Shown here: positions 6,029 through 56,031 of the stretch, in pieces
How positions within the stretch are numbered: position 1 is the stretch's first letter
Layout: every line of letters begins with the position of its first letter
DNA from: Lepiota brunneoincarnata
Taxonomy: Eukaryota; Basidiomycota; Agaricomycetes; Agaricales; Agaricaceae
NCBI GenBank assembly: GCA_023014365.1
Contig: JAEBUN010000077.1
Location: forward strand, 1-64,000
Length of the DNA: 64,000 nt
Direction: 5' to 3'
Made by a program: the position numbers and the translations under genes
Notes under the pieces: model-generated
The model's input: the letters and a program-made list of their open reading frames with translations, nothing else
Databases searched by the model: none
What the model was told of the DNA's origin: nothing

Positions 6029-6329
6029 TGTAAGGGCAACCTGGTTGTTGCATCATGTCAACTGAGCAGGGGGAAACCTTAGAGAATCAAGTAAGGTTTC
6101 TCCAAGCTTACCTACACTACTTATACTACTTGCCGTAAGTCCAAGTTAAGTAATCTACTCTACATAAATGGCCATGAGGTGTCAGGGATGTCTAAAGTGG
6201 GTATGGTCAGGAATGGGCTTGGGACAGGGTTGCATGCACCAGTGAGGGTTTGCATCTGCATTGGAGGGGCATAGGAAGGAACTCCAAGCACTGGAGTGCT
6301 GGAGGACCAAATTTTGAACTGAAGGGGGC

Positions 6330-6640
6330 TGTAAGGGGACTATACCCCCTTACGCAAGGTACGTCTAGGGGTCTGTGGTTGGGTATCTGTGCTCGGCCTC
6401 TCTAGCCGATGCCCGATGCCTAAGCCCGGCCTCGGCCTTCGGCCACCCCCATCCCCGAGTCTAACCCATGTGCGACTGACGTTGTTTGTATATTGTTTGC
6501 GTACGTTATGTTCTAGTAGCTACGTAGTGTTTGGCTACCCGGTCTGTGCGCAGGCCTCTATGTATATAAGTAGTGTGGGTGTCAATTGTATTCGCCACCC
6601 AAATATCAACTTGGTTCTGGTGCTCTTACTTCCCCTAACA
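6330..6640 (+). repeat. 5' LTR of KH-1
   Basis: 311 bp, TG...CA bounded, with a TATATAAG box at 6563-6570. Ten differences from the 3' LTR are visible and all are C/T or G/A at CpG-type sites. Translations of the LTR are conserved between copies only because the LTR itself is conserved. Confidence 0.92.
6563..6570 (+). promoter_or_regulatory. TATA box of the KH-1 5' LTR
   Basis: TATATAAG lies about 34 bp before ACCCAAATATC (6597-6607), the likely transcript start. The equivalent box is kept in the 3' LTR and in KH-2. The start site itself is inferred from spacing. Confidence 0.6.
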
Positions 6641-6642
6641 GA

Positions 6643-6652
6643 ATATTTGGGT
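6643..6652 (+). other. Putative self-priming site of KH-1
   Basis: ATATTTGGGT starts 2 nt after the 5' LTR and is the exact reverse complement of ACCCAAATAT at 6597-6606, the predicted 5' end of the transcript. Tf1/sushi-type elements prime reverse transcription by folding the mRNA 5' end onto a site just after the LTR. No complement to a tRNA 3' end is apparent here. KH-2 keeps both halves. Confidence 0.55.
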
Positions 6653-6721
6653 CTCTACGCAGACTCGCCAATCTAGCCCTCTGCACCCCACCTACCCTGT
6701 CTTCTCAGCTCTAACGTTAGT

Positions 6722-7873
6722 ATGCCCCACCGAAAGTCCTCAGGCAAACAGAAAGCGACTGTGCCTGCCCTACCGACAATGGCCCCTGCCTCAGCAGGAT
6801 CCTCGCGTTCAGGCGAGGATACTCAGGCCTTACTGGCCCGGATCGGCAAGCTTAACCACTTGATCGGTTTGCTCTCATCCCGCCTGCGCACCCTCGAGGA
6901 TCGCACCTCGACGGCTGCTGCCAGTCCTACTCCAGCTGTCATTCAAGCAGCTACTACCCAGAAGGGTCGCTTGCGGATCTCTGCGGATGTCCCACGCACT
7001 TCTAACCGCCCGGGCCCCACTCGCCCCACGGTAAAAGGCACCTCTACCGCCCTCCCGCTGTCGGCTCACTACCCACGGGACAACGAGGCCGATCGCTATC
7101 AGGCCACCCTTGTCATCGCCGACGACATGGGTGGGCACGTGGTTGGTCGCGGCGGCCGCGGCCTTAAACAGGTCGCCGACATTAGTGGCGCTCACCTCCG
7201 GGTCTATTCTGTGGCCACGGATGGTGCCGACGAGCGCCATGTCTCTATCAGGGGGATCGAGCAGCAACTCGGTGATGCCCTTGTGGTATTAGGTAAGCGG
7301 ATTGCGCGCAAGCGCGTCCACCTTCCAAAGACGAAGAAGGAGAAGACAACGGCGGCTTCCGGCCCTGCCCCAGCGGCCCCCGGACTGCCCGCTCCTGCAG
7401 CGGCGCAGGCTCCCGCTCCAGCTCGTGTGGATCCCACTGCCTCCGGCTCTGCTACCCCGGTCCCTGACTGGGCACATCCGGGTGCACGGTCTTCCTCGCA
7501 GGCCTCTTCTGTCGCCCCCACTCCCCCCATGATTTCTACCCCGGCCGGCGTCCCATCGACTACTATGCGCACGGCCGCATCTACTCCCACCCCTATGCGC
7601 TTGCCCGCGGTTTCTCGGCAACCGTCGCGCGGCTCCCCTATGCCCATCTCTACCCCCTCCGGTGCGTCTACTCCCGGAGTCCCATCAGTCCGGATGGGAA
7701 GCACTACCCCTACCCCGGCCTTGACCCCGATGGAGGTCGACAGCGTCATCTCGACCTGGGGCCAGGGACTTCCGCCTGTTGCCTACCCAGCCCGTCTTGA
7801 CTATGCCCGTTCCCTTCTGGCGGATAGGCTTGTCATTCGGCTCGTGGATGGTCGCTGGGCTCGTGCTGCTTAG
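6722..7873 (+). CDS. Gag-like KH-domain protein of KH-1
   Basis: An intact 383-residue ORF. Residues 1-30 are basic and Ser/Thr-rich; about 31-62 form a Leu-rich helix suited to self-association. A KH domain lies at about 126-200 with the hallmark GHVVGRGGRGLKQVADISGA: the GxxG loop is GRGG at 142-145. A Lys/Arg patch follows (KRIARKRVHLPKTKKEK). Residues 215-330 are a Pro/Ala/Thr-rich linker. The last 45 residues (from MEVDSVISTWGQG) are ordered-looking and conserved in KH-2. KH domains bind single-stranded RNA or DNA, so packaging of the element's own RNA is a reasonable inference. The start ATG is the first after the LTR. No other ORF is present in the element. Confidence 0.85.
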   Translation: MPHRKSSGKQKATVPALPTMAPASAGSSRSGEDTQALLARIGKLNHLIGLLSSRLRTLEDRTSTAAASPTPAVIQAATTQKGRLRISADVPRTSNRPGPTRPTVKGTSTALPLSAHYPRDNEADRYQATLVIADDMGGHVVGRGGRGLKQVADISGAHLRVYSVATDGADERHVSIRGIEQQLGDALVVLGKRIARKRVHLPKTKKEKTTAASGPAPAAPGLPAPAAAQAPAPARVDPTASGSATPVPDWAHPGARSSSQASSVAPTPPMISTPAGVPSTTMRTAASTPTPMRLPAVSRQPSRGSPMPISTPSGASTPGVPSVRMGSTTPTPALTPMEVDSVISTWGQGLPPVAYPARLDYARSLLADRLVIRLVDGRWARAA

Positions 7874-7921
7874 GACGAAGGAACCGAGTCGTCGGGTCAT
7901 CGACTCTTAAGAGGGGGCTGG

Positions 7922-8232
7922 TGTAAGGGGACTATACCCCCTTATGCAAGGTACGTCTAGGGGTCTGTGGTTGGGTATCCGTGCTCGGCCTCTCTAGCCA
8001 ATGCCTGATGCCTAAGCCCGGCCTTGGCCTTCGGCCACCCCCATCCCCAAGTCTAACCCACGTGCGACTGACGTTGTTTGTATATTGTTTGCGTACGTTA
8101 TGTTCTAGTAGCTATGTAGTGTTTGGCTACCCGGTCTGTGCGCAGGCCTCTATGTATATAAGTAGTGTGGGTGTCGATTGTATTCGCCACCCAAATATCA
8201 ACTTGGTTCCGGTGCTCTTACTTCCCCTAACA
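7922..8232 (+). repeat. 3' LTR of KH-1
   Basis: Same length as the 5' LTR, ending CCCCTAACA and followed by the GGGGC target duplication. It differs from the 5' LTR only by transitions at CpG-type positions. Confidence 0.92.
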
Positions 8233-8399
8233 GGGGCTGGGGATGAGATTTCTGAACATAGAGGGGCAGGGAATTGGATTTCCAAATTTGAGGTTGTAAG
8301 CAGTGACCTGAAGTTCCCCTTACACCTACCCCCTTCAAGGTTGTGATGACTCAGCACAATGGGTGGGTCAAGGGCATGGAAAGGGATTGAGCCAAATGT

Positions 8400-13150: not shown

Positions 13151-13806
13151 CATCATATCCATGCCAACTCAAAGCCTAATCATTAAACTTTGGCTTCTTG
13201 ACTCCATGTGTGCTCCACACAACAACCCTCTACCCTCCAACTCAGCCCTGACTTGCTCCAACCCCAACCCACTGCCCTGATCATGTGACCACCTATGCAC
13301 ATGCCATGGTCACCTAACCCTCAGTGTTTCTACTTCCCAGTTCTCCATTCCCTGCCTGTAGTCAGGATATGTTATCAGTCTCCATACCCATACTGGTTTC
13401 CATTCCATTTGTAATCCATTTGTAATCCATTTGTAACCATATTGGTCTCCACTTTGCTCTGCATGTAGTCAGTATGAGTCATAGTTTGTAAGGCCAGTAG
13501 TATATATACCATAGGTACTTGGCTTGTACTCAGTCTGATAATTAAATCAAGCAGCAGACCAGCTCTCTGTTCCATATCCTCCTCTCTTCTGCCTTGCTCT
13601 GCTTGGCCCTGACCTCCTGAAATACAGACTTGGACAGTAGGAGGGCATAGCACATAAGCTAAGGCCACAAGTCCAACCCCTTGCCCAAAGTACTCCACCT
13701 TGGTCCTGAAGTCTACATACTGACTTCACCCTATCCCCTGGTTACCTTGTATTAAGGATACCACCCCAACCCTCTGCTTCAGTCCTGACCCACACCAGCT
13801 CTAACA
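13151..13806 (+). repeat. LTR-C copy 1 (3' LTR of gypsy-Z), CpG-decayed
   Basis: 656 bp, homologous end to end with the solo LTRs at 20327-20987 and 37536-40067. It ends TCTAACA; the first two bases are CA where the family has TG. A TATATATA box lies near 13500. Almost every CpG of the young copy is TpG or CpA here. It interrupts a LINE RT frame at 13807. Confidence 0.85.
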
Positions 13807-18390: not shown

Positions 18391-20315
18391 TGTTAGGGGA
18401 AGTTAAGAGTGCCAGAACCAAGTTGATATTCGGGTGGCAAATACAATTAACACCCACACTACTGATATACATAGAGGTCTGCGCACAGACCAGGTAGCCA
18501 AACACTACATAGCTACTAGAACATAATGTATGCAAACAATATACAAACAACATTAGTCGTATGCGGATTGGACTTGGGGATGGGGGTGGCCGAAGGCTGA
18601 GGCCAGGCTTAGGCATCAGGCATCAGCTAGAGAGGCCAAGCCCGGACACCCAACCACAGACCCCTAGATGTACCTTGTGTAAGGGGGTGCACATAACGCT
18701 AGTCCCCTTACACCAGCCCCCTCTTAAGAGTCGATGACCCAGCGACTCGGTTCCTGTGTCCTAGGCAGCACAAGCCCAGCGGCCATCCACAAGCCAAATG
18801 ATGAGCCCATCTGCCAGAAGGGAATGGGCATAGTTAAGATGGGCCAGGTAGGCAACAGGCAGAAGTCCCTGGCCCCAGGTTGAGATGACACTGTCGACCC
18901 CCATTGGGGTCAAGGCCAGGGCAGGGGTAGCACTTTCCATCTGGACTGATGGGACTCTAGGAGTAGACACACCAGAGGGGGTAGAGATGGGCATAGGGGA
19001 GCTATGCGATGGTTGCCGAGAAACCATGGGTGAATGCATAGAGGTGGGGGTAGATGCAGCTGTGCACATAGTAGTTGATGGAGTGCCGGCCGGGGTAGAA
19101 ATCATAGAGGGAGTGGGAGCAACAGAAGAGGCCTGTGAGGAAGGCCATGCACCTGGATGTGCCCAGTCAGGGACTGGGGTAGCAGAGCCGGAGGCAATGG
19201 GATCCACACAAGCTGGAGTGGGAGTCTGAGCTGCTGCAGGAGTGGACGGTCCAGGGGCCGCTGGGGCAGGGCCAGAAGCCACCGTTGTCTTCTCCTTCTT
19301 TGTCTTTGGAAGGTGGATGTGCTTGTGCGCAATCTGCTTACCTAATACCACAAGGGCATCACCAAGTTGCTGCTTGGTCCCCCTGATAGAGACATGGCGC
19401 TCGTCAGCACCATCTGTGGCCACTGAATAGACCCAGAGGTGAGTGCCACTAATGTCGGCAACCTGTTTAAGGCTGCAGCCACCGTGACCAACCACATGCC
19501 CACCCATGTTGTTGGTGATGACAAGGGTGGCCTGATAGCGATCGGCCTTGTCATCCCGTAGGTAGTGAGCCGACAGTGGGAGGGTGGTAGAGGTGCCTTT
19601 TACCATGGGGCAAGTGGGGCCCAGGCAGTTAGGAGTGTGTGGGACACCTGCGGAGATCCACAAGTGACCCTTCTGGGTAGTAGCTGCCTGGATGACAGCT
19701 GGGGTGGGACCGGCAGCAGCCATTGAGGTATGATCCTTGAGGATGCACAGGCAGGATGAGAGCAAACCGATCAAGCAGTTAAGCTTGCCAATCTGGGCCA
19801 ATAAGGCCTGAGTATCCTCACCTGAATGCAAGGGTCCTGCTGAGGCAGGGGCTATTGTCAGTGGGGCAGGCACAGTCACTTTCTGCTTGCCTGAGGACTT
19901 TCAGCAGGGCATACTAGTGTTAGGGCTGAAAAGACAGGGTAGGTGGGGTGCAGAGGGCTAGATTGGCAAGTCTGCATAGAGACCCAAATATTCTGTTAGG
20001 GGAAGTTAAGAGTGCCAGAACCAAGTTGATATTTGGGTGGCGAATACAATCGACACCCACACTACTTATATACATAGAGGTCTGTGCACAGACCAGGTAG
20101 CCAAATACTACATAGCTACTAGAACATAATGTATGCAAACAATATACAAACAACATTAGTCATACACAGATTGGACTCAGGGATGGGGGTGGCTGAAGGC
20201 TGAGGCTGGGCTTAGGCATTGGGCATCAGCTAGAGAGGCCAAGTCTCGACACTCAACCACAGACCCCTAGACGTACCTTGCATAAGGGGGTGCACATAAT
20301 GCTAGTCCCCTTACA
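18391..20315 (-). mobile_element. KH-2: second KH-domain LTR element, CpG-decayed
   Basis: Two 322-bp LTRs (18391-18712 and 19994-20315) and perfect target duplication CAGCC (18386-18390, 20316-20320). It lies on the minus strand inside a gypsy-B LTR. The interior is colinear with KH-1, including the primer site after the 5' LTR and a purine tract before the 3' LTR. Nearly all changes against KH-1 are C-to-T or G-to-A at CpG. Confidence 0.9.
18761..19912 (-). pseudogene. KH-domain Gag-like ORF of KH-2
   Basis: The homologous start (19910-19912) is followed at codon 4 by TGA where KH-1 has CGA; after that the frame is open for 372 codons from 19879. The KH block reads GHVVGHGGCSLKQVADISG: the GxxG loop is GHGG, so an Arg is lost. 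Many Arg residues of KH-1 are Cys, His or Gln here, as expected from CpG decay. The C-terminal segment DSVISTWGQG...GRWACAA is kept. Confidence 0.82.
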
Positions 20316-20326
20316 CAGCCAGTTTA

Positions 20327-20987
20327 TGTCATATCCATGCCAACTCAGAGTCTAATCATTTAAACTTTGGCTTCTCAACTCCACGTGTGTTCCACACAAC
20401 AACCCTCTGCCCTCCGACTCGGCCCCGACCTGCTCCGACCGCAACCCACTGCCCCGATCACGCGACCACCTCCACACGTGCCGTGGTCACCTGATCCTCG
20501 GTGTCTCATACCCCCGTCTCCATTTCCCGTCCGTAGTCAAGATACGTTATTAGTCTCCATACCTGTACCCATTTCCATTCCATTTGTAATCCGTTCGTAA
20601 TCCATTTGTAACTAGATCGGTCTCCGCTTCGCTCTGCATGTAGCCAGTACGAGTCATAGTTTGTAAGGCCGGTAGTATATATACCGTAGGTACTTGGCTT
20701 GTACTCCTCAGTCTGATAATCAAATCGAGCAGTGGACCAGCTCCCTGTTCTCTATCCTCTACTCTCTTCTGCCTCGCTCCGCTTCGGCCCCGACTTCCTG
20801 AAATACGGACTAGGGCAGTAGGAGGGCACAGCACATATGCTGAGGCCGCAAGTCCAACCCCCCGCCCGACGTACTCTGCCTCGGTCCCGAAGTCTACATA
20901 CTGACTTCGCCCTGTCCCCCGGTTACCTTATATCAGGGATACCACCCCGACCCTCCACTTCGGTCCCGACCCGCACCGGCTCTAACA
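20327..20987 (+). repeat. Solo LTR-C copy 2, young and CpG-rich
   Basis: 661 bp, TGTCATATCC...CTCTAACA, with perfect 5-bp duplication GTTTA (20322-20326, 20988-20992). It has a TATATATA box near 20677. It is CpG-rich, unlike its homologue at 13151, so it is recent or has escaped mutation. No internal region remains, so it arose by LTR-LTR recombination. Confidence 0.9.
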
Positions 20988-21230
20988 GTTTAAGGGCAAA
21001 GAGGTATAGGAAGCAAGAACTGTATAACACTAAGATAGAGATACATAGGGATGTACTGTATCCTTATATACTTCTATGTGTGGCTATGCTCCTACTATAA
21101 TAGGCCAGACCTGGGTAACTATGAGTCATAACTAAGAATAGTCCTTCTGATGTACACTACTGATTGTTTCATAGTGACATGGGAGTTTGTGCTAAATATA
21201 ACTGTCCTTCTGATGGAGTTTCTGATAACA

Positions 21231-23691: not shown

Positions 23692-26600
23692 ATGTCTGAC
23701 TCAGTCAGTGCTAGAATTACACCTCTTACCAACTCCAACTATGGAGAGTGGTCAGGTGAAATGCAGGCATGGTTGATGTCAAAGGGATTGTGGAATGTGG
23801 TCAGTGGGAAGGAGAAAAAGCCTGAAAAGGATCAGGGGAATATAGATGCTTGGGAATTGAAGGTGCAAAAGGCTGCTGGTGACATATATCTGTTACTGGA
23901 TCGTGACCAGAGGGTGCATGTTCAAGATTTAGTGGGGGATCCAGTTGAAATGTGGAAGAAGCTTGAGGCGGTGCATCAGTCCAAGAAACCTGGTGCTTGA
24001 TTCAATGCATATGATGATTTCTTCTCCATTCGTAAGAATGATGAGGAATCATTAGTTGATCTGGGGACACGAATAGAGAAGGCAATGACAACTATACAGG
24101 ATTTACGTCCTACCAAGTTCACCATTACCAATCTTGATGAGGAACTACAATGCATGGCATTGATTTGAGCATTACCAGAGGACTATGCGCACCTGTCAAC
24201 AGCACTACTACTACAGGACAAATTGACCAAGTCAACTGTCCTTGCTGCCTTCTGAAATGAGGACCTCAATCGTCAAAAGCGAACAGAGATAGCCAATCGG
24301 GCAATGGTGGGAGGCTTTAAAGGAAAGAAAAAGTGGAAACCAAAGACACCAGGGGTTGTAGTCACTTGCTATGTCTGTAGCAAAGTGGGGCATATTGCAA
24401 GAGTGTGTCATGATCGCAAAGACAAAGTTGGGACAAATACAGCAGAGGCACACAGAGTTGAGGAAAGTGGGGAGAAGATGCCAGAGTCAGCTCATGTGGC
24501 AAGTACTCTTTCTGGTTTTGAGGCATGCTTTACATCATCTAATAGTTTCCATTGGATTATAGACACAGGGGCCTCTTCTCATATGACCCCTCATAAAAGC
24601 TGGTTACAAGATTACACTCCATTTAGAGTTCCTGTTTGACTTGCGGACAACAGTATTGTATATTCAGAGGGTATTGGACATGTTATCTTCAGACCAGTTA
24701 TTAATGGACAATTAGAAAGAGATGTTGAATTTACCAGAGTACTACATGTTCCGGCATTACAGAGTAATCTTCTTGCTGTTCTAAACCTAACTCTTCATAA
24801 AGGGATTGATGTTCACATTTCTCTTGATAAACTACAGTTCTTCCAAAAAGACCAATTACTATTTACTGGTTCAGTTAAAGGTACTACTGGTTATCTTGAT
24901 GGTTCTACTGTAGAAAATATAGAAAATGTTCATATTGCATCAACTCTCCCTCTGAATCTATCTCTGTGGCATAAATGGCTTGGGCATCACAACTATGAGG
25001 ACATCAAACGGATGATCAAAAGTGACATAGTTAGTGGAATGACAGTAAGCTCATCTGAGAAGCCTGATCCAATCTGTGAGCCATGTCTAGCAGGAAAAAT
25101 GCATGCAAACCCATTCCCCCCTTCAGAACATAGAGCATTACAGTCATTAGAACTTGTTCACTCTGATCTTCACCAAGTATCAGTAACATCATTGGGTGGT
25201 TTCGATTATTGGGTTACATTTATTGATGACTTCTCTCGATTTCGGGTTGTCATACCCTTAAAGAGAAAGAGTGATGTATTTGATGCATTCAAGCGGTTTA
25301 AAGTGTTTGCAGAAAATCAAACTGGACACACTCTGAAAACCTTCCGATGTGACAAAGGGGGTGAATATATGGGATCAAACTTTATCAAGTTCCTTGATGA
25401 TTGTGGCATTGCTAGACAATATACTGTGCGAAATAGGCCACAACAGAATGGTGTTGCTGAACGAGCAAACAGAACACTTAATGAAAGGATCACAGCTATG
25501 ATCTCAGAAGCTAATCTGTCAAAGGGGTACTGGGGTGAATGTCTTGCTGCACTTGTTCATGTTTGGAATCACTGTCCCACATCTGTACTGCCAAGCATGA
25601 CACCATATGAGGCATGGTATGGCAAGAAACCTGATGTTAGTCATCTTAGAGTTTGGGGGTGTATCACATATGTCCATATCCAAAAGGATAAAAGGTCACC
25701 ACTTGGAAGTCATATGGAAAAGTGTGTATTCATTGGGTATCCTGAAGGATATAAGGGGTGGAAATTTTACAATCCTGTTACAAAGAAAATAGTTATCAGT
25801 GAACGTGCAGAGTTTGATGAGTGTATTGGTTTAAATGGTCCTCTCCATCACCAATTGCAACCTAATGATATAAATGATAAAGAACCTGTTCTACCAGCCT
25901 CTGAACCAATCCTGGTACCACTCACTGACCCATTGACTCCATGTGTACAAATACCACCAACTGGACAAGTTGAAGCAAATGATGAACAGGATGATGATAT
26001 CAGAGAAGGCCTACCAAGTGAACCTGAAATTGACTCTAGACCAATTGCTATTCGAAAGCCCAAATGGAATGTGGCATGCCCATTAGGATATTGGAAGCAT
26101 AGAGAGCCTAAACCACTGGTCACTGACTCAGAATCAGAGGATGAGCAACAGAATGCTCAGTATAGCCAAGAGATGGAACCACAGTCATACTCTGAGGCAT
26201 TAGAGCGACCAAATGGTGAGGGTGATAAATGGCATGAGGCAGCACTAGAGGAGATTAATGCCCACCTCACAAATGGAACTTGATCACTTGTACCACTGCC
26301 TCCAGGGGAGAAAGCAATTGGGTCTAAATGGGTGTTCAAGGTTAAACACAATGCAGATGGCTCTATAGAGCGTTACAAAGCCCGTATTGTAGCAAAGGGA
26401 TTTAGTCAGCAACCAGGACAAGATTATTTTGAAACCTTTGCATCAACTATGTATCAGAGTACCATCCAAACTATACTTGCTCTGGCTGCTATTGAAGACC
26501 TAAATCTGTGTACTGTGGACATATCTCATGCTTTTATCAATAGTGATATTGATGCTGAAATATATATGAAGCAGCCAGAAGGGTTTGAGCAAGGGGGTTC

Positions 26601-27747
26601 AGAGTATGTTTGTAAACTGAACAAGTCCCTATATGGGTTAAAGCAGTCACCTCATCTGTGGAGTGAAAAACTTGCAACTGTAATGGAAGGGATGAATTTC
26701 CATAGGTTGCACAGTGATCCATCAGTTTACCTCTATGCCCGGGATGATGTACAGGTAATCGTCCCCATGTTTGTGGATGACATCACAATTGCATCAAAAT
26801 CTGTTGAGAAAATGGACCAGTTTGTGGAAGAATTATCTTCACATTTCAAATTGAGGGACCTAGGTGAAACATCATTCTTATTGGGTGTTGAAATCAAACA
26901 AGATAGGCAACAGCACATATTGACACTGTCCCAACGTCAATATATTCTAAAGAAGTTGGAAGAGTTTGGAATGACAGAGTGCAAACCACAAACAACACCC
27001 ATGATACCTAATAAGGTCCTTACACTAGATGACTGTCCAAAAACTCCAGAGGAAAAGCAAAAGATGGTTAATATCCCTTACATGAATGCTGTTGGCTCTC
27101 TCATGTATTTGGCCACTACAACATGTCCGGACATTGCTTATGCTGTAGGGGTACTAGCACACTTCAATGCTAACCCTGGAATGGCTCATTGGTCAGCTGT
27201 TAAATACCTGTTCCAATACTTAAGGGGTACATTGAACTATAAGCTCACATATGGATCTGACTCCAGTATTGGTGATAGGATGTTTGTGACATATTGTGAT
27301 GCTGATCATGGAGGAGACAAGGACTCTCGCAAATCCACAACAGGATATTTGGTGAAGCTGGGTCAGGGGGTTGTGTGTTGGAGAAGCAAGCTTCAACCTG
27401 TAGTCACCAAGTCAACTACTGAAGCAGAGTATGTGGCTGGAAATGAAGCTGGAAAAGAAATCCTGTGGATGCAAAAATTGCTAGGAGAGCTTGGATATAC
27501 TCCATGTGCCCCATCGGTACTATACACTGATAGCCAGTCTGCAATGTCTGTTGCCAAAAACCCTGATCACCATGGGAGGATGAAACACTTGGACATGGGT
27601 TATTATTGGTTGAGGGAGAAGGTGGCAATGAAAAAGCTACAGCTTGAGCACCTGTCTACTGATGACATGCCAGCTGATCTGCTTACAAAACCTCTTGCCC
27701 GAGTCAAGGTGGAGAAGTTCTGTGATCTTATAGGTTTAAGGAAATGA
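23692..27747 (+). pseudogene. Copia gag-pol polyprotein, five in-frame TGA stops
   Basis: One frame of 1351 codons from MSDSVSARITPLT. Domains: gag helices (1-200), zinc knuckle CYVCSKVGHIARVC (226-239), protease DTGASSHM (Asp 291), GAG-pre-integrase HKWLGHHNYED...CEPC, integrase DDE with Asp 492, Asp 554 and Glu 590 (D35E spacing), RT with VDISHAF (942-948), YGLKQSPHLW and FVDD (1027-1030), RNase H with CDADHGGDKDSRKSTTGY, TEAEYVA and YTDSQSAM. Stops at 23998, 24166, 24253 and 24637 are TGA where Arg is expected; that at 26281 is TGA where Trp is expected. No frameshift is needed. All catalytic residues are present, so inactivation is recent and purely by point mutation. Confidence 0.93.
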
Positions 27748-37535: not shown

Positions 37536-40067
37536 TGTTAGAGCCGGTGCAGATCAGGACCAAAGTGGAGGGTCGGGGTGGTATCCTTGGTATAAGGTAA
37601 CTGGGGAACAGGACGAAGTCAGTACGTAGACTTCAGGACTGAGGTAGAGTACTTTGGGTGGGGAGTTGGACTTGCGGCCTCAGCATATGTACTGTGCCCT
37701 CCTACTGTCCTAGTCTGTATTTCAGGAAGTCAGGGCTGAAGCAGAGTGAGGCAAGATAGAGAGAGGAGGATAGGGAGACAGGGAGCTAGTCTGCTGCTCA
37801 ATTTGATTATTAGACTGAAGAGTACAAGCCAAGTACCTATGGTATATATACTACTGGCCTTACAAACTATGACTTGTACTGACTATGTGCAGAGCAAAGC
37901 AGGGGCCGATATAGTTACAAATGGATTACAAATGGATTACAAATGGAATGGAAACCAGTACAGGTATGGAGACTGATAACGTATCTTGACTATGGACAGG
38001 AAATGGAGACTGGGAACTAGAGACACCAAGGGTCAGGTGACCATGGCATGTGTGGAGGTGGTCGTGTGATCGGGGCAGTGGGTTGCAGTCAGAGCAAGTT
38101 GGGGCTGAGTCAGAGGGCAGAGGGTTGTTGTGTGGAACACACATTGAAAAGCAGATTACTTTATGAGATCAAAAATGAAGTTTGTTAACAGGTTTGCTAT
38201 GTAATTCCAACTTTATAAGTTTGTGGGGGAGAGGTTGTCACAGATCTCCAGAAATATATTCAATTCTAGTGTTTTTAGGGTCTTGGTAAGTTATTCTCTT
38301 AGTCTCCAACTAGACAGACAGTTGTTCTATCTGAATACAATGGGAACTTTGACAGTCATTACTATATAATATGTTAACTAATATCTTCACAATTTGATAA
38401 GTCAGGCAAAACACAAGCTTTCACAATCAGTGAACCTCCATAGACCTAGCAGACAACGTGTTTTAATGGGCCCTAGCGTACTACATCCTTTTCTCTTGAC
38501 AATACTGTAAATTTACACTACCCAGTGAGACAGGCTTTTGACAAGCTCCTGCAGTAAGTGTCTTTAAGCTAGTAGGCCTAGTGGACAGCATTATCTAATG
38601 GGCCCTAGTGCACTACAGCTTCTGAACAAGGCAATAAAACTTTTATACTACTCAGTGAGACAGGCTTCTAGCAAGCTCCTGCAGTAAGTATCTTTAAACT
38701 AGATAGACCTAGTGGACAGCATTTTCAACAGGCCCTAGCATACTATGTTTGCTTCTCAATTAAACAGCTCTACAATTCAATGGTATACTTCTGAGGCAAG
38801 GCCTCTAAGAGGAACCCAAAGAAACAGAGGTTAGTGAACTTTCTACTTAAGAACAGAAGAGGCATAGCAACTCGTATTCAGTTCTCGAGTCAAGCAGAAG
38901 GGTCTGTCAATATCTCAATCATTTCAAAGGGTCTGGTTTTTAAAGAGTATAACTCTTTAAGTCCCTGGTGGTCTATGACTGAAGAAAATCACATAAAATT
39001 GCTTTATATTCCTATCCTAATTGACCATACAATCAGGGGGGGAAATAGGCAAGCAGTTTCTTGCCTCCCATGTAATTTACAGACGAGTTTTTATAATAAT
39101 ATACAATTAACTTATGGGTATACCTGAAACAAGCCTTCAGCTTCATCATTTTATTGTCTCCTCATCATTTAGGAGCATCATTCTAGGAGTTCCGATATCA
39201 GCAACATCAATTTGCTCTCAGGGACTTGCTCCCTAGGTGCCTGGCTATTTATATCACAGCCAGCTGGGTTAGCAAGTTTCCTCGCTAACATTTATCTATT
39301 GGTTTTTATTCTCAGACTCTCCACACCTGAGTTTCTCAACCCTAATATTCTAAAGTCCACTTCCATAGTCTTCAGGTAGTAGACTAACACTAGAATTAAT
39401 TAGCTTATTCTATTCTTATCAATCTTCATTTTCTAGTTCATCATTTCTGATCTCTTTTTGTTTCTATGAGGGGGCATCCTTCCCTGAGTACCCTCTGGGA
39501 TACCCTCATTCAATCCCTTAGGTTCCAATATCATCAGAATCATTCCAAGGGGACATTCTTGTCAGGACATTAGCTAATCCCTACATTCTTTTGTCAAGAT
39601 TCACTCCCAGACCTGTTATTATGACTAGGTACTATCTGGATGACATAGGTGTTGTGACTTGTCCACTTTCTAGGGCAGAGGCAAAGAAATGGGTCTTTTG
39701 TGCAGTCATGAGTATCTTAACTAATATCTTAGTTAACATGGTATTGGATACAATGCTCGGGTACATTCATATCAGAGTCATTCTTCCATAGCCTTGTCAC
39801 CAATAAGTTAGTTAACATGACTTTTTACTTGTCTGGGTGTTCTGGTTCTGTTTCTGAGATGTCCACCTTCACATATTTTAGATAGTATTCTAAATCCCTT
39901 GCACCCAGTGTCTGACCATGGCCATATACTGATATTATTCAGTAACGGAGAGCTAGTTACTTTATTAGCTAGTGATTTCACAAATGAAATGATTTTGCGG
40001 CACAACAATGTAGAGTCGAGAAGCCAAAGTTTAAGTGATTAGACTCTGAGTTGGCATGGATATGACA
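37536..40067 (-). repeat. Solo LTR-C copy 3, interrupted by S2
   Basis: Minus-strand LTR-C (TGTTAGAGCC...GGATATGACA on the plus strand) with perfect duplication CAACT (37531-37535, 40068-40072). S2 sits within it at 38145-40007. Partly CpG-decayed. Confidence 0.88.
38145..40007 (-). repeat. S2: second copy of the 1.86-kb repeat
   Basis: Inverted homologue of S1 with the same ends (TGAAAAGC...GGCACAACA on the plus strand), TATA-like and polyadenylation signals and triple tandem repeat (about 38400-38750). It is inserted in a solo LTR-C. The target duplication is not clear (AT or ATG at most). Confidence 0.65.
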
Positions 40068-46639: not shown

Positions 46640-49600
46640 CATCCCTTCTTGGACTTCAACCATCAACAACTCACTTGCACAGCCACAGCCTTCCCCTACA
46701 TCGTCCTCTGCAACAAGCTCTATTGTCCTGATCTACGATCTTAAAGTCTAATGCACATGCCTCCAAGGTCTACTCACTCCTCTCAGGGGGCGGGGGCTCC
46801 TCTGCTGCCAGATCCTTCATTGCTGGACCCCCTTGCCATGGCTCCTTCCCATACTTAGGCTGCCCCCCTCAGCTCCTTCCAACCTGGATACAGTTCTGTG
46901 TCACAGGCTGTTGTCCCTGCTCCAGCTGCTGAGGCCCCCAAGAGGTCTCACAAGTCCATTGTTTATCCAGATGATGCCCCGGTGACCCCCCATCCCAAGT
47001 GCACCCACACACTCAAGCCCTCCACCTCCCTCAGGCAGGAGCTTGATCTTGAATCAGTCTCCAGTTCCATTAGGATGGCAGTTGACATGCCTGGCCTTGA
47101 GCCGTCCCCTGGCCCCACTTTTGCCGTGGATGAGGAGGAGAATCCCGATTTTGTCCCCACCTTTCTCGCCCTTTCCCACAGTCTTGCAGATGTAGAGGGT
47201 GAGACTGGGATTGTGGTGGATGCACTCAACACAGTGGCCCTTTGGCTGGAGAGAGCCAAGAGGGCCAAGCTTTCTGAGGGTGGCAGCGTGGAGGTTGCCC
47301 ACTCTCTGGCCAGGCTCTTCCACAAGGTGGAGGAGCATGACTGGGATGATATCCCCTTTATGGAGGGCAAGTGCACCCATAGGCTCCATAAGTGGGCCTC
47401 TGAGGTATATGGTCTGTCCAGGCTGGGCACCCCCACCCCTGCGCAAGGGAGGGGCAAATAGCCGGACTCTGCTAGTGCAGCTGCCCCTGCTGGGGTGGCA
47501 GGCAGCATGCATGCCCCCTCTCCTAGGGCCTCTGTGGCTCCTATGGAGGTGGATGGTGCTCCGCGGGCTGGTGGCTCTTGCCGCCCCCCTATGGAGGGTA
47601 ACCTCCCCCTGCCTCCCCCCCTGGCAGAGGACTTGGGGCATTTTCCTGCTGGGTATGCATGTCCTGTGCCTACCCAGCAATTCTTCAGAAACCTGGCCCA
47701 TACAGGGTTGGGCAATCCTGTCCCATTGGCTTGCAACCCTGGTGCTGGGCAGCGGCCATCTCGCGTCAGGGTAGCTCACGCTGCTCTTGTTCCCCTGCTG
47801 TTGGCAGCAGACAGGGCTCAGTTGGTTGCTAGGCCACCCCCTGGCCCCCTCCCTCCACACGTCAACTTGGCTACCAAGCCTCGTTCCCCACCCTGCTCCT
47901 ATGTGGCCATGGCTGTCTCTTCCCCATCAGGTCTGGTTGACCTAGTGTGTGCTCTCCTGGGGCTGCCTTCTCACAAGGTGGTCTTGTTTCATAAGCAGAC
48001 AACAGCCACTCAGCAGCCATCCAAGGCCCCCAAGCCTTGGATAACTACGTCAGGGCCTTTGCGCAAGCAGGTCATGCTCACCCTTGCAGGAGGTGGCCTC
48101 TCGGTTAACCTGGGCCCTGTTGTCTGCATGGAGATTCATTGGGTGACAGTGGCCACCCTGGCTTCTGCAGGCTCCCTCATGTATATCGAGTGGGTCCAGC
48201 AGATGGACACCCACATAGCTTGCTACACCACTGCTGTGCCCAGTGAACTGGACATCAGTACTATCAGGAACACAGTCTGAGCTCAGTGGCCTCAGGCCAT
48301 CATGGATGTGAACCTTCCCCGCTTGAAGAGCTACCTCAAGCTCCTTGACGTGCCTATGTTCTGGGGTGGTCAGCCCTGGCTCATGCCCAACAGGGTGGTC
48401 GAGGCCATGCAGCAATCTGTGTGGTCTGAGTATTTTGTGCTGGCCACCAGGCCGCGCATTGTCAAGAATTCGAGGGCTGCTGACATGGCCACCGTGTTCT
48501 TTGAGATCTGGGACTCTCAGCAGGGGTCCAATGTGAAGACTGTCTCACGACAGGTCATCACTATTGACGGCGCTCTGTGCAGGATCATCCCTGCCAAGGC
48601 CAACCCTGGCATTCCCCTCTGCCAGCGCTGCTGGAAGTGGGGGCACCCTTCTCTAGCCTGCCAACATGAGGCTATCTGCTGCTCCCACTGCAGCGGTCTG
48701 CATTCCCCAACCAACCATCGGGCATTTGTGTCATGTTGCAAGGGCCAGCCCAACCATAGGCTGCCCATTGCCCCTACTCCTGCTGACCGCCCCTGCCCTC
48801 ACGCCCCTGTTTGTGTGAACTGCGGTGGTGCTCACCATGAGGCCTTGTGCATGTGCTCCTCCTTATCTTCACCCAGTCTGGACCACATCACGTGGATGCA
48901 CCTCAAGTCTGTTCTGGCAGGCCCAATGGTTACCTGTTTGGTCTGTTGGATCGCCAATGCCTGCATGGAGTGTGGACATTGGCCTTGTCACTTTAAGGAG
49001 AGCATGTCAGTTATCATACTGAAGCCTGGCAAGCCCTCCTATGCTACTCTGAAGGCTTTTAGACTGATTGTCCTTCTTAACACTCTCAGTAAACTTATCA
49101 AGAAAATGATCTTGCACTGCTTGCAGTTTGAGGCTGTCAAGTTTGGCATGTTCCATCCAAACCAGTTCAGTGGTGTGATCCAGCAGTCCACTGAAGATGC
49201 TGGTGCCTATCTCATGCACCTAGTCCATGCTGGATGGGCTTGCAGGTTGAAGATGAGTGTTCTCACCTTTGACATTGCACAGTTTTTCCCATCCCTGAAC
49301 CATGGGATGCTTCTCGCAGTTCTGGCTCAGCAGGGGTTCTCCCCTTGTGTGGACCAGTTCTTCACTTTGTATCTCACGGGGAGGTTTACCAGCTACGCCT
49401 GGAATTCCTTCCTGTCTAAACCATTCCGGGTGGAGGCAGGGGTGGGCCAGGGGTCTGCCCTCTCACCTGTCCTGTCCAGCCTTTACTTAGCTCCCACCAT
49501 GTATATTATTGAGCAGAGGCTCCCTCAGCTGGGCCTCTTGCTCCTATCTTACATCAACAATGATACTATCGTGGCACAGGCCTGGGACCTGGATGCTAAC

Positions 49601-51360
49601 TGCGTCCTGCTCCACAGATTTTACAAGGTGGTCCATGACACCTTTACTCAGTTCGCACTTGTAGTGGAGCACGACAAGTCTGAGCTCTTCCATTTCTCAT
49701 GGGATCGTTCCGGTGAGAATCCCCTGGTGGACTTGGGGTTTCCCCCATTCACTGGCACTACTCCCCTTTGGCCCAAGACATATTGGAGGTACTTGGGCTT
49801 CTATTTCGATTGTGCTCCTACGTTTAAGGAGCATGTTTGCTTCTACTCTACCAAGGCTATTTCTATAGTTAAGGCCATGGGGATGCTTGGTAATTCCATC
49901 TGGGGGCTTCTGCCTGATCAGAAGCACCTTCTCTATCGGTTGTGCATGGTTCCTATAGCCATGTATGGCTTCCGCTTGTGGTTCTACTGGGGCGCTAGAT
50001 GTAAGGGCACTTTGGACCACCTCCACCAGATGCAGCATCGGGCTGCACTCTGGATTACTGGCACCTTTAGGACATCTCCCGATGGGGGAGTTGGGGCCAT
50101 TGCGGGCCTGATCCCCATTCATCTTCATCTCCAGAAGCTCCGTGATCGTGCCGAGTTGCGGTACGCCACGCTTGCTCTGGGTCATCCCATTTGTGCCCCC
50201 CTTGGCTGGGGCTACAGCGGTGATCTCCAGTCTCATGTCCAGTCTATAGCCAGGCTCCCTCCCCGAGAGTTGATCAAGGTGAAGGGGCCTGTTGTCGACA
50301 CTAATCAGCATCTTGCCACCCTTGCTGGGCCCTTCAATGCTATTGCACCAGAGGCCTGGCCAGGGCATCGACTCTTGGACATGTACCCGGGTCGGGTCCA
50401 CTTCCACTCGTACGACCAGGGGGCGGAGGATGCCCTTATGGCCCACATCGCAGCTCTTGACTGGATCCTCACCTGGTCGCAGGCTGATGTGGGGGTTCTG
50501 GTAGCAGCAATGGACATGAGTCTGCTGCCCCACCGGGTCCACTAGGCAGTTTTGGCCACTCAGGTTTTCCAGGGGCTGGACTGCATCCATGCAGTCTGGC
50601 TTCCAGGGGGGAAGGTTACAGCTCCTGAGGCTGAGCTTTTCACCATCCAGCTGGCAGTGTCCAAGGCAGTTTCTGTCAAGGGTGCCACCAGTCCTGTTCT
50701 GTTCACCAACTCAGTGGCCACGGCCAGGCGGGTGGTGGACCCTTCAGTGCACTCTGCCCAGGATCATTCCTTGGCGGTTTGTCGCCTACTTGCCAAGTGG
50801 TTTGCCAGGGGTCCAGCCCGCTTGGTCCATTTCTGGGAGGTCCCTTCGCATGTAAAGTGGCCTTTCCATACTCAGGTGCATGACTTCGCTAGGTTGTTGC
50901 CTCCTGTTGGGATAGGGGCTTGTCCCTGAGCCTTGCTTGACTACCTCTGCAAGGAGGAAGTATGTTCGTGTCAGGACCGCTGGATTGATTCATTCCAGGA
51001 TCCTGACTATTGTGGGCACAGTTTCCTCCAGCTCGCCAGGGATGATGACTGTCCCCTGCAGCCCACATATCTCCACAGTGGGGCCTGGATTCCGCACACT
51101 CACTCGGTGTCTGTAATGGCCCGGATGACATGTGCTATTCTTAATCATGCGCTGATAGGGTCCTCCCACCTCCATTCGTTCAGGGTGGCTTCGTCCCGGG
51201 CATGGGGAAATGCATGCCCGCATCTGCAGTCATGCATTGTATATACAAATACCCTGTAGTGTACAACTCAGTTGGTTGTACCGTAGTTAGTAGCTGCACA
51301 CAGCCTCCCTACGTGGCCTGCATTATAAATTGGAGATTTAAAAAAAAAAAAAAAAAAAAA
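46640..51360 (+). mobile_element. LINE L8: family A, complete ends but internally deleted
   Basis: Both ends are real: 5' CATCCCTTCTTGG and 3' ATTATAAATTGGAGATTT plus A20 (51341-51360). A target duplication GGTATAGGGCTC lies at 46628-46639 and 51361-51372. Total 4.72 kb. ORF1 with zinc knuckles is joined to RT by a deletion that removes the ORF1 end, the endonuclease and the RT N-terminus. RNase H follows, but the C-terminal Cys/His part is also deleted near 51165. Cannot be autonomous. Confidence 0.92.
46751..50929 (+). pseudogene. L8 fused ORF1-RT-RNase H frame
   Basis: A single frame of 1392 codons from MHMPPRSTHSSQG with four internal stops (TAG 46856, TAG 47459, TGA 48278, TAG 50543). 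The longest open part is 747 codons (48302-50545). Zinc knuckles CQRCWKWGHPSLAC, CSHCSGLHSPTNH and CVNCGGAHHEALC lie at residues 107-183 of that part. The RT palm follows: VIILKPGKPSYATLKAFR, FDIAQFFPSLNHG, VGVGQGSALSPVLSSLYLAP. The active site is YINND where L12 has YIDDG, so both catalytic Asp are lost. RNase H-like sequence AELFTIQLAVSKAV and LFTNSVATARRVV ends the frame. The junction lies at about 48831-48845 around CATGAGGC. Confidence 0.88.
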
Positions 51361-51802: not shown

Positions 51803-53164
51803 CAGAGCTCTAAAGCCCAGCCAGAGCAGCAAGATGCTGGTTGGTGTTGATAACAGGCCCCTTCACCTTAATCAACTCACGGTGAGGGAACCTTGCTATG
51901 GACCAGACATACAACTGGAGATTGCTGCTGTAGCCCCAACTGAGGAGGGCACAAACAGGGTGTCCTGGAGCAAGTGTAGTGTACCACAACTCAGCATGGT
52001 CATGAAGTTTCCGGAGATAGAGATGGATAGAGATCAGGCCTACAATGGCCCCAACCCCCCCATCAGGCAACATCCTAAAGGTGTCAGTAATCCAGAGTGC
52101 AGCCTGACACTGCATCTGGTGGAGGTGGTCCAGAGTGCCCTTATATCTAGTGCCCTGGTAATACCACAGACAAAAGCCATAGGTGGCTATAGGAACCACA
52201 CACAACTAATATAGCAGGCACTTCTGATCAGGCAGAAGCCCCTGAATGGAGTTACCAAGCATCTCCATGGCCCTGACCATGGAGATAGCCTTAGTAGAGT
52301 AAAAATGAACATGCTCCTTAAACGTAAGGGCACAATTGAAATAGAAGCCCAAATACTCCCAATAGGTCCTGGGCCAAAGGGGGGAAGTGCCAGTGAATGG
52401 GGGAAACCCCAAATCCACCAGAGGGTTCTCACCAGAATGATCCCATGAAAAGTGAAACAGCTCAGACTTGTTGTATTCCACAACAAGCACAAACTGGGTA
52501 AAGGTGTCATGGACTGATATATAAGATCTGCATGGAGAAGGATGCAGTTAGCATCCAAGTCCCAGGCCTGCACCACGATGGTACCATCGTCAATGTAAGA
52601 CAAGAGTGAGAGGCCCAGCTGAGGGAGCCCCTGCTCAATAATATACATGGCTGGAGCCAGGTACAGGCTGGACAGGACAGGTGAGAGGGCAGACCCCTGG
52701 CCCACCCCCACCTCTGCCTGGAATGGTTCAGACAGGAAGGAATTCCAGGCATAGCTGGTAAACCTCCCCATGAAATAGGAAGCAAAAAACTGGCTAACAC
52801 AAGTAGAGAACCCCTGTCTGGCCAGAATTGCAAAAAGCATCCCATGATTCAGGGATGGGAAGAACTGTGTGATGTCAAAGGCGAGAACACTTGTCTTCAA
52901 CCTGTGAGCCCACCCAGCATGGATCAGGTGCACAAGGTAGGCATCAGCATCTTCAGTGGACCTCTGGATCACACCACCAAACCAGTTTGGATGGAACATG
53001 CCAAACTTGACAGCCTCAAACTGCAAGTGGTGCAAGATCATTTTCTCAATAAGTTTACCAAGAGTGTTAAGAAGGATGATTGGTTGGAATGCCTTCAGTG
53101 TAGAGTAGGAGGGCTTGCCAGGCTTCAGTATGATAACTGACATGCTCTCCTTAAAGTGACGATC
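51803..53164 (-). pseudogene. LINE L12: reverse transcriptase fragment, family A type
   Basis: The frame from about 53164 reads FKESMSVIILKPGKPSY, FDITQFFPSLNHG, VGVGQGSALSPVLSS and LLSYIDDGTIVVQAWD, with an intact YxDD. A frameshift lies near 52510, and a stop at 52206 precedes LCVVPIATYGFCLWY. It lacks both ends. On its right it joins a family B 3'UTR at 53165. Confidence 0.85.
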
Positions 53165-56031
53165 AGGGTAATGTGTCAATTGGCAGTAAATCACTTCAAG
53201 CTGCCCAAGGGTAACTGGTGAATAACCATGGACTCCTCAAGGCCAAGGCCTGCAAGGGGGGATTAATCTGAAGGCCCTCTTTTTTTTTTTTTTTTCTTTT
53301 TTAAATCTCCAATTTATAACGCAGGCTGTGTAGGGAGGCCGTGTGCAGCTACTAACTATGGTACAACCAACCGAGCCATACACTACAGGGTATTTGTACA
53401 TACAATGTGTGACTGTGGATGCAGGCATGCGTTTCCCCATGCCCAGGATGAAGCCACCCCGAATGAATGGAGGCGGGAAGACGGCTACCGCCCAGCACGC
53501 AGCACAAGAACCAAACTGCAGCAAGGTCCCCCCCCTTATCAGGGGTTAGGGGTCAATTCCCTCATAAATCCCTACACACCACCTGAAGGCGGTGGGGGAA
53601 TAATCAACGCCCTGGCCCAGACCCAACTGGGCACCAGGCAGAGCCATTAGCCAATACCCCCCAGAGGGGGCCTGGCCCTCTCAGCAAACACGAATGTGGT
53701 CGGTGATGCCTTGAGGAAAGCAATGAGGGCCTCAACCGTAGCTGGGACCCCTGCCATGGAGTGCTTAGGGCAATTCCGGAATACATGCTCATGAGTCTCC
53801 TCCCAAAAACCCGCAGCAACAGGAATAGTCTTCCTGTGGGAAGAAGCACCTCTGATAGCTCCCTATCAGTGTGTGATTAAGAATAGCACACGTCATCTAG
53901 GCCATTACAGACACCGAGTGAGTGTGCGGGATCCAAGCCCCACTGTGGAGATACGTGGGCTGCAGGGGGCGGTCATCGTCCCTGGCAAGCTGGAGGAAAC
54001 TGTGCCTGCGATGGTCAGGATCCTGGAACGAATCGATCCAACAGTCCTGACACGAATGTACTTCCTCCTTGCGGAGGTAGTCAAGCAAGGCCTGGGGACG
54101 AGCCCCTATCCCAATGGGAGGCAACGACCAAGCAAAGTCATGCACCTGAGTATGGAAAGGCCACTTTGCATGCAACGGGACCTCCCAGAAATGGACTGAG
54201 TAGGCCAGACCCCCAGCAAACCACTTGGCAAGAAGGCAACAAACTGCCAAGGAATGACTCTGGGCAGAGGGCACTGAAGGGTCCACTACCTGCCTGGCTG
54301 CAGCCATCGAGTCGGTGAACAGAACAAGACAGGCGGCACCCTTGACAAAAACTGCCTTGGACACTGCCAGCCAGATGGCAAAAAGCTCGGCCTCAGGAGC
54401 CATAACCCTCCCCTCTGGAAGCTGGACCGCATGGATGCAGTCCAGCCCCCAGAAAACCTGAGCAGCTGAAACCACCTGGTGGACCCGGCAGGGTGGCAGA
54501 CTCACGTCCGTTGCTACCACCAGAACCCCCACATCAGCCTGCAACTGGGCAAGAACCTGGTCAAGAGCTGCAATGTGGGCCATAAGGGCATCCTCCGCCC
54601 CCCAGTTGTACAAGTGGAAGTGGACCCAAACCTGAAGGCCCTCCCCAGTTATCCCACTCCCTCAGGAGGATGGGGTTGGAATAAAAACATAGAGGGATTT
54701 TGCTCCAGAAAGCCCAACAGGGCATCAAGGCCGTGGGGCAAGCCACCACATCATGTGTACTTTGGACAAGAAGTGAGAATGTGTGTGCAGGTTTCAAGCC
54801 ATAACCCACAAGGACAGGAGTGATCCTCCTAGGGGTGGAATCTAGTGTGGTACTCCCTAATAGGGGTGTGACCGAGTATAGTGCAGACTGCCCGCACTGT
54901 GCCAGCAACAGACATCTGAGGGCCAATTTCTGGGAGCCAGGTACCTCCAGAGAGATATGAGGGTTGGAGAGGCTTCCCAAGGGAGTCCAACAGGGGGAGG
55001 AAATTTCTACCCTGATACAAGGGTGAGTGAAACATGTTCACCCACTTGTCAATACACCCCCTTGTGACCTCAGCCTGGAGGGAGTTGATGATGGTCGCCG
55101 GGCAGGCACCTAGCAAGATACGAAGCTCCTTTGCCATTGCAACAGCATCAGAGTGAAGCTTTGCAACAGAGCCTGAGGGCACCTGCCAGAAAGTAACAGT
55201 CCACTGGGCCTTGGCAGACAACCAGTGATCCAGAGACTGACACACCTCCAGGGAGTGAGCCTAGCTGGCATGAACAGAAGGATTAACAGCTCTGCAGGCA
55301 GAGCCTGTGGAGCTGGTGTAGATAAAAATATGATCAGTTTCAGCACAATCCAGGACCATGCCTACTCCCAATTGAATGGAGTGGAGCTCCACATCAGTGA
55401 GCAGAACCCTCCCCATGGCCTGCCTGACCAAGTACCTGCCTGCAAACATGCAAGCCACCAAAATAGCCTACAGTCTTCCACACAGCAGCCGGTGAGCACC
55501 AGCCACTATGCAATCAGACAACAGGTTGTCCTGCACCCTCCAGATAGAGGTGTACAGTCCATCAAGATACTATTGCTTCAAATCCCCCTCCAGATCAACA
55601 GTGTATAACATGAATTTGATCCACTCCAAGAAGCAGTCCAATAGACAGAGACCTGGCCTATTCTCATCTGCAAACAGAGAAAATGGCTCAGTAAGCTGCA
55701 GGAGTACATTCTGTATCTCCACAAGGGTACTCTTCACCTTAGGCCGAAGCGCAGGGGTGAGAGAAGAAATAGACCAAGGGTGCTCTGGAGAGCTCCCCCT
55801 GAACTTATGGCCCAGCAAGGGCCAAAGTGGATAATTCACTGTAAGGGTGGCAACCTGGAAAATCATATGGGAGACTAGCTTCTTGAGATGCAACCAGAAG
55901 GGCAGGAGGCCTGCAAGGGCCTCTGCCCCCCTAGTCAAAAACATACGAAAAGCACAGACAATCCAATTGGTGGCACGCCACTGCATGGAGTTAAATATCT
56001 TGAGGATTTCCTTGTTATGGAAACCCTCATG
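53165..56031 (-). mobile_element. LINE L13: family B C-terminal part and 3'UTR, split by L14
   Basis: Segments 54632-56031 (RT thumb MQWRATNWIVCAFR, GHKFRGSSPEHPW, RNase H-like ELHSIQLGVGMV, FHPRRIT) and 53165-53279 (3'UTR). L14 lies between, flanked by CTGAAGGCCCTC. The 3' end is lost by a junction with L12. At 56031 it meets plus-strand L15 head to head. Confidence 0.78.
53280..54631 (-). mobile_element. LINE L14: family A, 5'-truncated, with 12-bp target duplication
   Basis: Duplication CTGAAGGCCCTC (53268-53279, 54632-54643). T tail 53280-53295, AAATCTCCAATTTATAACGC, 3'UTR, then ORF2 C-terminal part with RNase H: GLDCIHAVQLPEGRVMAPEAEL, LFTDSMAAARQVVDPS. The acidic residues that L8 has lost are kept here (TDS). 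Relatively CpG-rich, so rather young. Confidence 0.9.

Follow-up and report, generated by a model that had tools for sequence, protein, structure and literature searches.

How non-autonomous long terminal repeat (LTR) retrotransposons enter the particles of another element is, to our knowledge, poorly understood. TRIM and LARD elements are flanked by LTRs, lack pol, are moved in trans and carry no conserved open reading frame (ORF). In plants, TR-GAG elements have been described as LTRs around a lone gag (PMC9784723). Tf1/Tf2 of fission yeast and Tj1 of S. japonicus are described as self-priming Ty3/gypsy elements, the 5' end of their RNA being complementary to the primer-binding site (PBS) (PMC4600332, PMC7175516). 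The element considered here lies at positions 6330-8232 of a 64,000-nucleotide stretch of Lepiota brunneoincarnata (the window; positions 1 to 64,000 of contig JAEBUN010000077.1, assembly GCA_023014365.1). It is a complete LTR element, a unit of 1903 bp, whose single gene encodes a KH-domain protein, and is termed the KH element below.

The KH element resembles TRIM and LARD elements in being LTR-flanked, without pol and presumably moved in trans, but its ORF is constrained, and because TRIM and LARD as usually defined have no conserved ORF it belongs to neither. With TR-GAG, as described in PMC9784723, it has in common two LTRs, one ORF, the lack of pol and a probable dependence on another element; however, the ORF of TR-GAG is a Gag, whereas that of the KH element is a KH protein without Gag, capsid or zinc-knuckle match, which excludes it from that group. 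Tf1/Tf2 and Tj1, as portrayed in PMC4600332 and PMC7175516, resemble it in that the 5' end of the RNA, predicted in the case of the KH element, pairs with the PBS and, for Tj1, in a 5-bp target-site duplication (TSD), but they possess gag and pol and the KH element has neither. Judged from its sequence, it is a non-autonomous LTR retrotransposon that is neither TR-GAG nor TRIM/LARD. A preliminary description of the window knew of no family of this kind, and neither a KH-only LTR element nor packaging in trans by a KH protein was found in a search of an open-licence PMC library (Repbase and subscription journals lie outside this search).

We give a probability of about one half to the reading that the KH element is a non-autonomous satellite of a resident Ty3/gypsy family with a 1396-codon pol frame (the helper), and that its protein most likely binds its own mRNA and delivers it to the helper Gag. 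The element RNA would start at a self-primer in the LTR and fold back onto the primer site. The KH protein, which has a coiled-coil-like helix and a basic tail, would bind its mRNA at a C-rich leader soon after translation, pair up through the long helix and hand the bound RNA to helper Gag particles, whereupon the helper reverse transcriptase (RT) and integrase may copy and insert it, reading the same primer design and LTR ends. The role assigned to the protein draws on its KH fold, on the constraint on its ORF and on the retention of that ORF in young copies.

The window element and its family

The KH element lies on the + strand between two copies of the TSD GGGGC (6325-6329 and 8233-8237). 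Its LTRs (6330-6640 and 7922-8232) have TG...CA ends, measure 311 nt each and are 97% alike, the 10 differences being transitions only. The 5' LTR begins with TGTAAGGGGAC (6330-6340), a terminus common to the helper family, has a TATA box (6563-6570) 34 nt upstream of the self-primer ACCCAAATAT (6597-6606), which would be the RNA 5' end, and finishes with CCCCTAACA (6632-6640; helper counterpart GCCCTAACA). Two bases past the LTR stands the PBS ATATTTGGGT (6643-6652), followed by a C-rich leader motif CCTACCCTGTC (6691-6701), which also occurs in the helper family and is a candidate packaging or initiation signal. The KH ORF (6722-7873) comprises 383 codons plus stop without an internal stop, and the polypurine tract (PPT) AAGAGGGGG (7909-7917) precedes the 3' LTR by four bases, so that both a PBS beside the 5' LTR and a PPT near the 3' LTR are present. 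The preliminary description had reported two equal LTRs, a 5-bp target duplication, a purine tract, one intact 383-codon ORF with a canonical KH core and no pol. All of this is borne out, the KH core by the profile match and loop given below and the lack of pol by the ORFs of the window and Pfam.

The genome (55.6 Mb in 95 contigs) was searched for further copies. As the best 40 of 381 candidates from the DNA search were scored, its counts are lower bounds: at least 17 end-to-end copies, the window's included, stand at 95-100% identity, together with older copies at 79-88%. The recurrence of the same 1903-bp unit at 17 or more places means that the window element is not a chance arrangement. 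Protein search yielded at least 105 matches (best 107 of 111 candidates), and 27 of the 105 listed are nearly whole (beginning by residue 9 and reaching at least residue 380) and stop-free. A Pfam KH search gave 58 domain matches, 42 at KH-element places and 16 at about five host-like loci, as compared by eye. A second, older copy is present in the window itself (18391-20291, - strand, 88% DNA identity); its KH ORF remnant (18761-19879) retains a PF00013 match, and its full-length protein match is interrupted by one in-frame TGA.

Paired LTRs with TG...CA ends and a TSD recur at many sites. An own 5-bp duplication flanks 16 of 16 complete subfamily-1 copies with both ends placed and, among older copies, L034 and L037; this tally covers neither L021 (a second LTR fragment adjacent) nor L015 and L023 (one LTR cut or missing), nor the nine older loci L026-L033 and L036, whose LTR alignments began only at base 12-16 at one end or at both. 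Ten of ten fetched LTRs outside KH elements, sampled from 24 such matches among the best 40 scored, are solo LTRs with TSDs, and the LTR core pattern occurs at 312 sites genome-wide. The LTR pairs of 20 copies show 0-10 differences, every one a transition, and two pairs are identical (in five of the 20 the aligned length was 302 nt, the first bases being unaligned). The PPT lies four bases before the 3' LTR in each of three groups inspected. With its many dispersed copies, TSDs and near-identical LTR pairs, the family is to all appearance young. A diverged and decayed KH family, L082 (C53:20500-23000), was also seen at 39% protein identity (41% at C59:129439); its LTR end and leader motif are the same.

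Self-priming and the likely helper

A feature absent from the preliminary description is self-priming. The window self-primer is the reverse complement of 6643-6652, and an LTR-PBS match of 10-11 nt is found in 28 of 30 tabulated loci (32 tried). The exceptions are L037, in which the anchor is missing, and L080, which has an LTR disrupted by other sequence and a match of six nt. Primer and PBS have changed together, as the pairs ACCCAAATAT/ATATTTGGGT, ACCTGAATAT/ATATTCAGGT in subfamily 2 and ACTTGATTAT/ATAATCAAGT in L082 illustrate. The difference between subfamilies 1 and 2 (CCCA versus CCTG) may be an old CpG changeable by deamination, a caveat to this covariation; the L082 set, with an A-to-T and other changes, goes beyond what CpG deamination explains, and its primer lies 33 nt downstream of a TATA. 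In the predicted RNA fold of the leader the ten-pair primer-PBS stem forms. The element is of the Tf1 self-priming type in that its predicted RNA 5' end is complementary to the PBS. In two old copies, L034 and L036, the 5' LTR primer fits the PBS and the 3' LTR has the primer form of the other subfamily, a mixture that may reflect CpG decay or recombination between subfamilies.

The preliminary description had proposed that movement uses the enzymes of another element. RT profile search (best 150 of 1371 candidates scored) identified many Ty3/gypsy-type copies, and a 1396-codon open pol frame stands at five or more places, belonging to one family whose 5' part was read in L083. This helper encodes gag (Retrotrans_gag, E 5.9e-11; zf-CCHC, E 5.9e-5), then protease, and RT, and no KH, in contrast to the KH element with its KH ORF only. 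Its LTR ends in TTGCCCTAACA, followed by GAAGAATAGGAT, and its LTR primer ATCCTATTCT pairs with AGAATAGGAT, which gives a 10-nt self-primer; the closest TATA lies 34 nt before it, and further ones at 47 and 56 nt. Helper and window element agree in the first 11 bases of the LTR and in 10 of its last 11, and GAA follows the LTR in both (TTGCCCTAACA plus GAA in the helper versus TTCCCCTAACA plus GAA in the KH element).

The helper junction occurs at 35 sites genome-wide. Measured against 18 selected RT matches among those listed, an RT lies 2479-2483 nt past 14 of these junctions and 3005-3799 nt past three more. The sequence TGTAAGGGGACA is present at 241 places (reversed control, 6); among the matches listed, it stands 406-464 bp upstream of where the helper LTR ends in 11 of the 12 junctions that could be assessed (at 804 in the other), and the next one is 5269-5271 nt downstream at seven of the 12. 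The helper LTR mostly measures 453-464 bp. In blastn, the part of it that was read, with the first 72 bases missing, gave no match to KH LTRs at E 1e-4. The leader motif CCTACCCTGTC lies 45-50 bases into both KH and helper leaders, with 8 of its 11 bases unpaired in the predicted KH leader fold, and CTACCCTGT is retained in seven of seven aligned KH leaders. The pattern CTAACAGAA-N30-55-CTACCCTGT occurs at 65 sites genome-wide against none for the reversed control: 45 at KH junctions, 17 at helper junctions and three in KH elements by protein match.

Shared LTR termini, PBS start and leader are what would be expected of a satellite of the 1396-codon family, and this putative helper link is well supported; it lends the idea of borrowed enzymes a plausible source. 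Another self-priming family, with a 1286-codon frame (L081), was tried as helper; its LTR ends in CTCTAACA, but it was set aside since it starts with TGTCATATCC and has no leader motif. One KH copy (L030) is inserted within the gag-pol region of a helper copy, with the TSD TCATC.

A partner with pol and the same LTR ends, also envisaged in the preliminary description, has thus been found as far as the LTR termini go, but not with the same LTR-PBS junction. This junction (up to three mismatches) occurs at 54 sites, 53 of them in KH elements (compared by eye with KH places; two fetched), including C26:37882 and C25:73440, which are KH leaders broken by insertions though no KH match is nearby. 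The remaining site, C25:1925448 (three mismatches), has neither KH nor RT nearby among the matches listed and is taken as chance; a pol-bearing element was not found among the 54 sites, as judged by the RT matches listed. Among longer proteins, none of 397 candidates of 550-1750 aa matched the KH protein at E 0.001, so that no KH-pol fusion was found.

The KH protein and its possible role

The KH domain comprises residues 114-199 (7061-7318, + strand) by profile and predicted structure. The KH_1 profile (PF00013) covers residues 129-187 with E 2.5e-6 and a score of 27.6 bits, above the cut-off of 21.5. No second Pfam match, Gag, capsid and zinc knuckle included, appears at E up to 10. The GxxG loop is GRGG (residues 142-145), of which G142, G144 and G145 are nearly invariant among relatives. 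The predicted fold is closest to the KH domains of hnRNP K/PCBP, and in sequence and fold together the nearest relatives are hnRNP K, PCBP, Nova and KSRP; compared with hnRNP K and PCBP, the protein has one KH only and is otherwise unlike them. Structure prediction of the two ends, which the preliminary description had called for, gave a long coiled-coil-like helix at residues 30-63 (6809-6910, + strand; predicted local distance difference test score, pLDDT, about 86-91) and a C-terminal helix-helix-hairpin at residues 336-381 (7727-7864, + strand) without firm fold match: the best Foldseek matches of this domain alone, to winged-helix repressors, have E of 0.46 or more and are not trusted. 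VIA matches of the whole model fall on the KH and hardly cover other parts. Lys/Arg-rich stretches occur at the N-terminus and after the KH.

Related proteins number 55 at E 0.001 and 100 by profile search. They come mostly from environmental sets, many on contigs of 1.2-1.9 kb, and also from Mycena citricolor and several Termitomyces strains; those with names are annotated as hypothetical, unnamed or KH-domain proteins. Their conserved part is the KH core with its last helix, most commonly GDALVVLGKRIARKRV. The small C-terminal domain is present in one group of environmental proteins and was not seen by eye in one Mycena and one Termitomyces sequence. Among viral contigs, 18 stretches fit the word pattern and none encodes a relative (records near the source genome may be left out).

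The ratio of nonsynonymous to synonymous substitution (dN/dS; Nei-Gojobori) was calculated from intact ORFs (15 of subfamily 1, six of subfamily 2, and L036), and its values are rough owing to the transition-rich mutation. Between subfamilies 1 and 2 it is 0.33 for the whole ORF and 0.22 for residues 120-205 containing the KH, the C-terminal region being loosest (0.62); against L036 it is 0.39 and 0.20, respectively. The KH ORF is under constraint between subfamilies. As a selfish element would keep a gene mainly if the encoding copy benefits, such constraint hints that the protein acts in cis.

Titles of structure entries describe the binding of C-rich single strands by the KH domains of PCBP, and the leader motif is C-rich. 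It is conceivable, if somewhat less probable than the satellite reading as a whole, that the KH protein is a private packaging adaptor, marking its own RNA in cis and placing it in the particles of another element. In the preliminary description the KH protein was instead proposed to take the place of Gag in packaging the RNA. The 383-residue protein indeed matches no Gag or capsid profile; but since the helper supplies a Gag of its own, of capsid type and with a zinc knuckle, particles would not have to be built from the KH protein. The part of an adaptor is more probable for it, and a stand-alone KH capsid is unlikely. Being the only gene, in gag position and with a predicted long helix that could oligomerise, the protein might still stand in fully for Gag, forming particles by itself and borrowing only RT and integrase, but the missing capsid and zinc-knuckle match, the 132 of 383 residues with pLDDT below 50 and the helper Gag with Retrotrans_gag and zf-CCHC at hand render this improbable.

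Host proteins of the hnRNP K/PCBP type stabilise or export RNA or promote its translation. The main rival, rather unlikely though ahead of the others, is that the KH protein acts before packaging, on the stability, export or translation of its own RNA, and that the helper zinc-knuckle Gag alone packages this RNA through the shared leader. The nearest KH relatives and the Lys/Arg-rich stretches accord with such a role, as does the presence in the helper of both the leader motif and its own zf-CCHC, but the same evidence fits packaging equally well. There is little to recommend the notion that the protein serves to counter host silencing or the helper, for instance by hiding RNA from RNA interference or by blocking the packaging of helper RNA: 18 of 20 LTR pairs differ by transitions only, a sign that repeats may be subject to silencing or to a mutation process, but transitions are uninformative on the KH protein. 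Host-type KH genes exist in the genome (the 16 of 58 KH_1 matches noted above), so a captured host gene, a passenger without part in transposition, could be imagined; this is highly improbable and disfavoured in view of the ORF constraint. Moreover, Mycena, Termitomyces and many environmental sets have similar proteins, which indicates an old and maintained gene.

Several observations weigh against the satellite and delivery reading. The helper RT is identified by profile only, and integrase lies outside the part read. The sequence TGTAAGGGGACA is not helper-specific, as it also starts some KH-type LTRs, with three or more sites about 280-300 bp before KH LTR cores (C1:1678826, C6:1038676 and C15:842073). 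Of the 54 KH junction sites nine lack the exact combination of junction and motif, as do 18 of the 35 helper junctions. Taken by itself, the leader match is only moderately unlikely: a shared 10-mer at a similar offset turns up in 56 of 20000 shuffles. The gypsy LTRs read are those of two families (L081 and L083), 1222- and 1203-codon families being present besides. The stability of the whole-leader fold is ordinary (z -1.0). Inside subfamily 1 dN/dS is 0.59 for the ORF, 0.31 for the KH and 1.07 for residues 1-110, and inside subfamily 2 it is 0.51, 0.23 and 1.83 (few changes), respectively, which means that recent constraint is weak outside the KH.

Other elements in the window and broader meaning

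The window also holds remains of other elements. The gypsy family with the 1286-codon frame (L081), which is abundant and also self-priming, is represented by LTRs of 81-86% identity at 13153-13806, 20327-20989 and 37536-38142; in L081 itself the gag frame is broken by an in-frame stop ahead of the zinc knuckle, and the pol frame, of 1287 codons, includes a chromodomain and a Tf2-1-like SH3. By eye, 25012-27747 is an apparently broken Copia-type element with integrase and RT ORFs (25012-26283 and 26332-27747), and a LINE-like RT ORF of 747 codons (48302-50545) is accompanied by a similar, shorter ORF set on the opposite strand (52187-54613).

The KH element belongs to a young family, its RNA-binding gene is conserved and is not a Gag, and a likely helper with which it shares a short leader motif resides in the same genome, so that RNA binding offers a direct test of how such elements are packaged. 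In fungal genomes, some genes annotated as "KH-domain" or hypothetical may belong to retroelements and not to the host. If the proposed delivery to helper Gag is true, it may represent a new form of hitchhiking by a genetic parasite.
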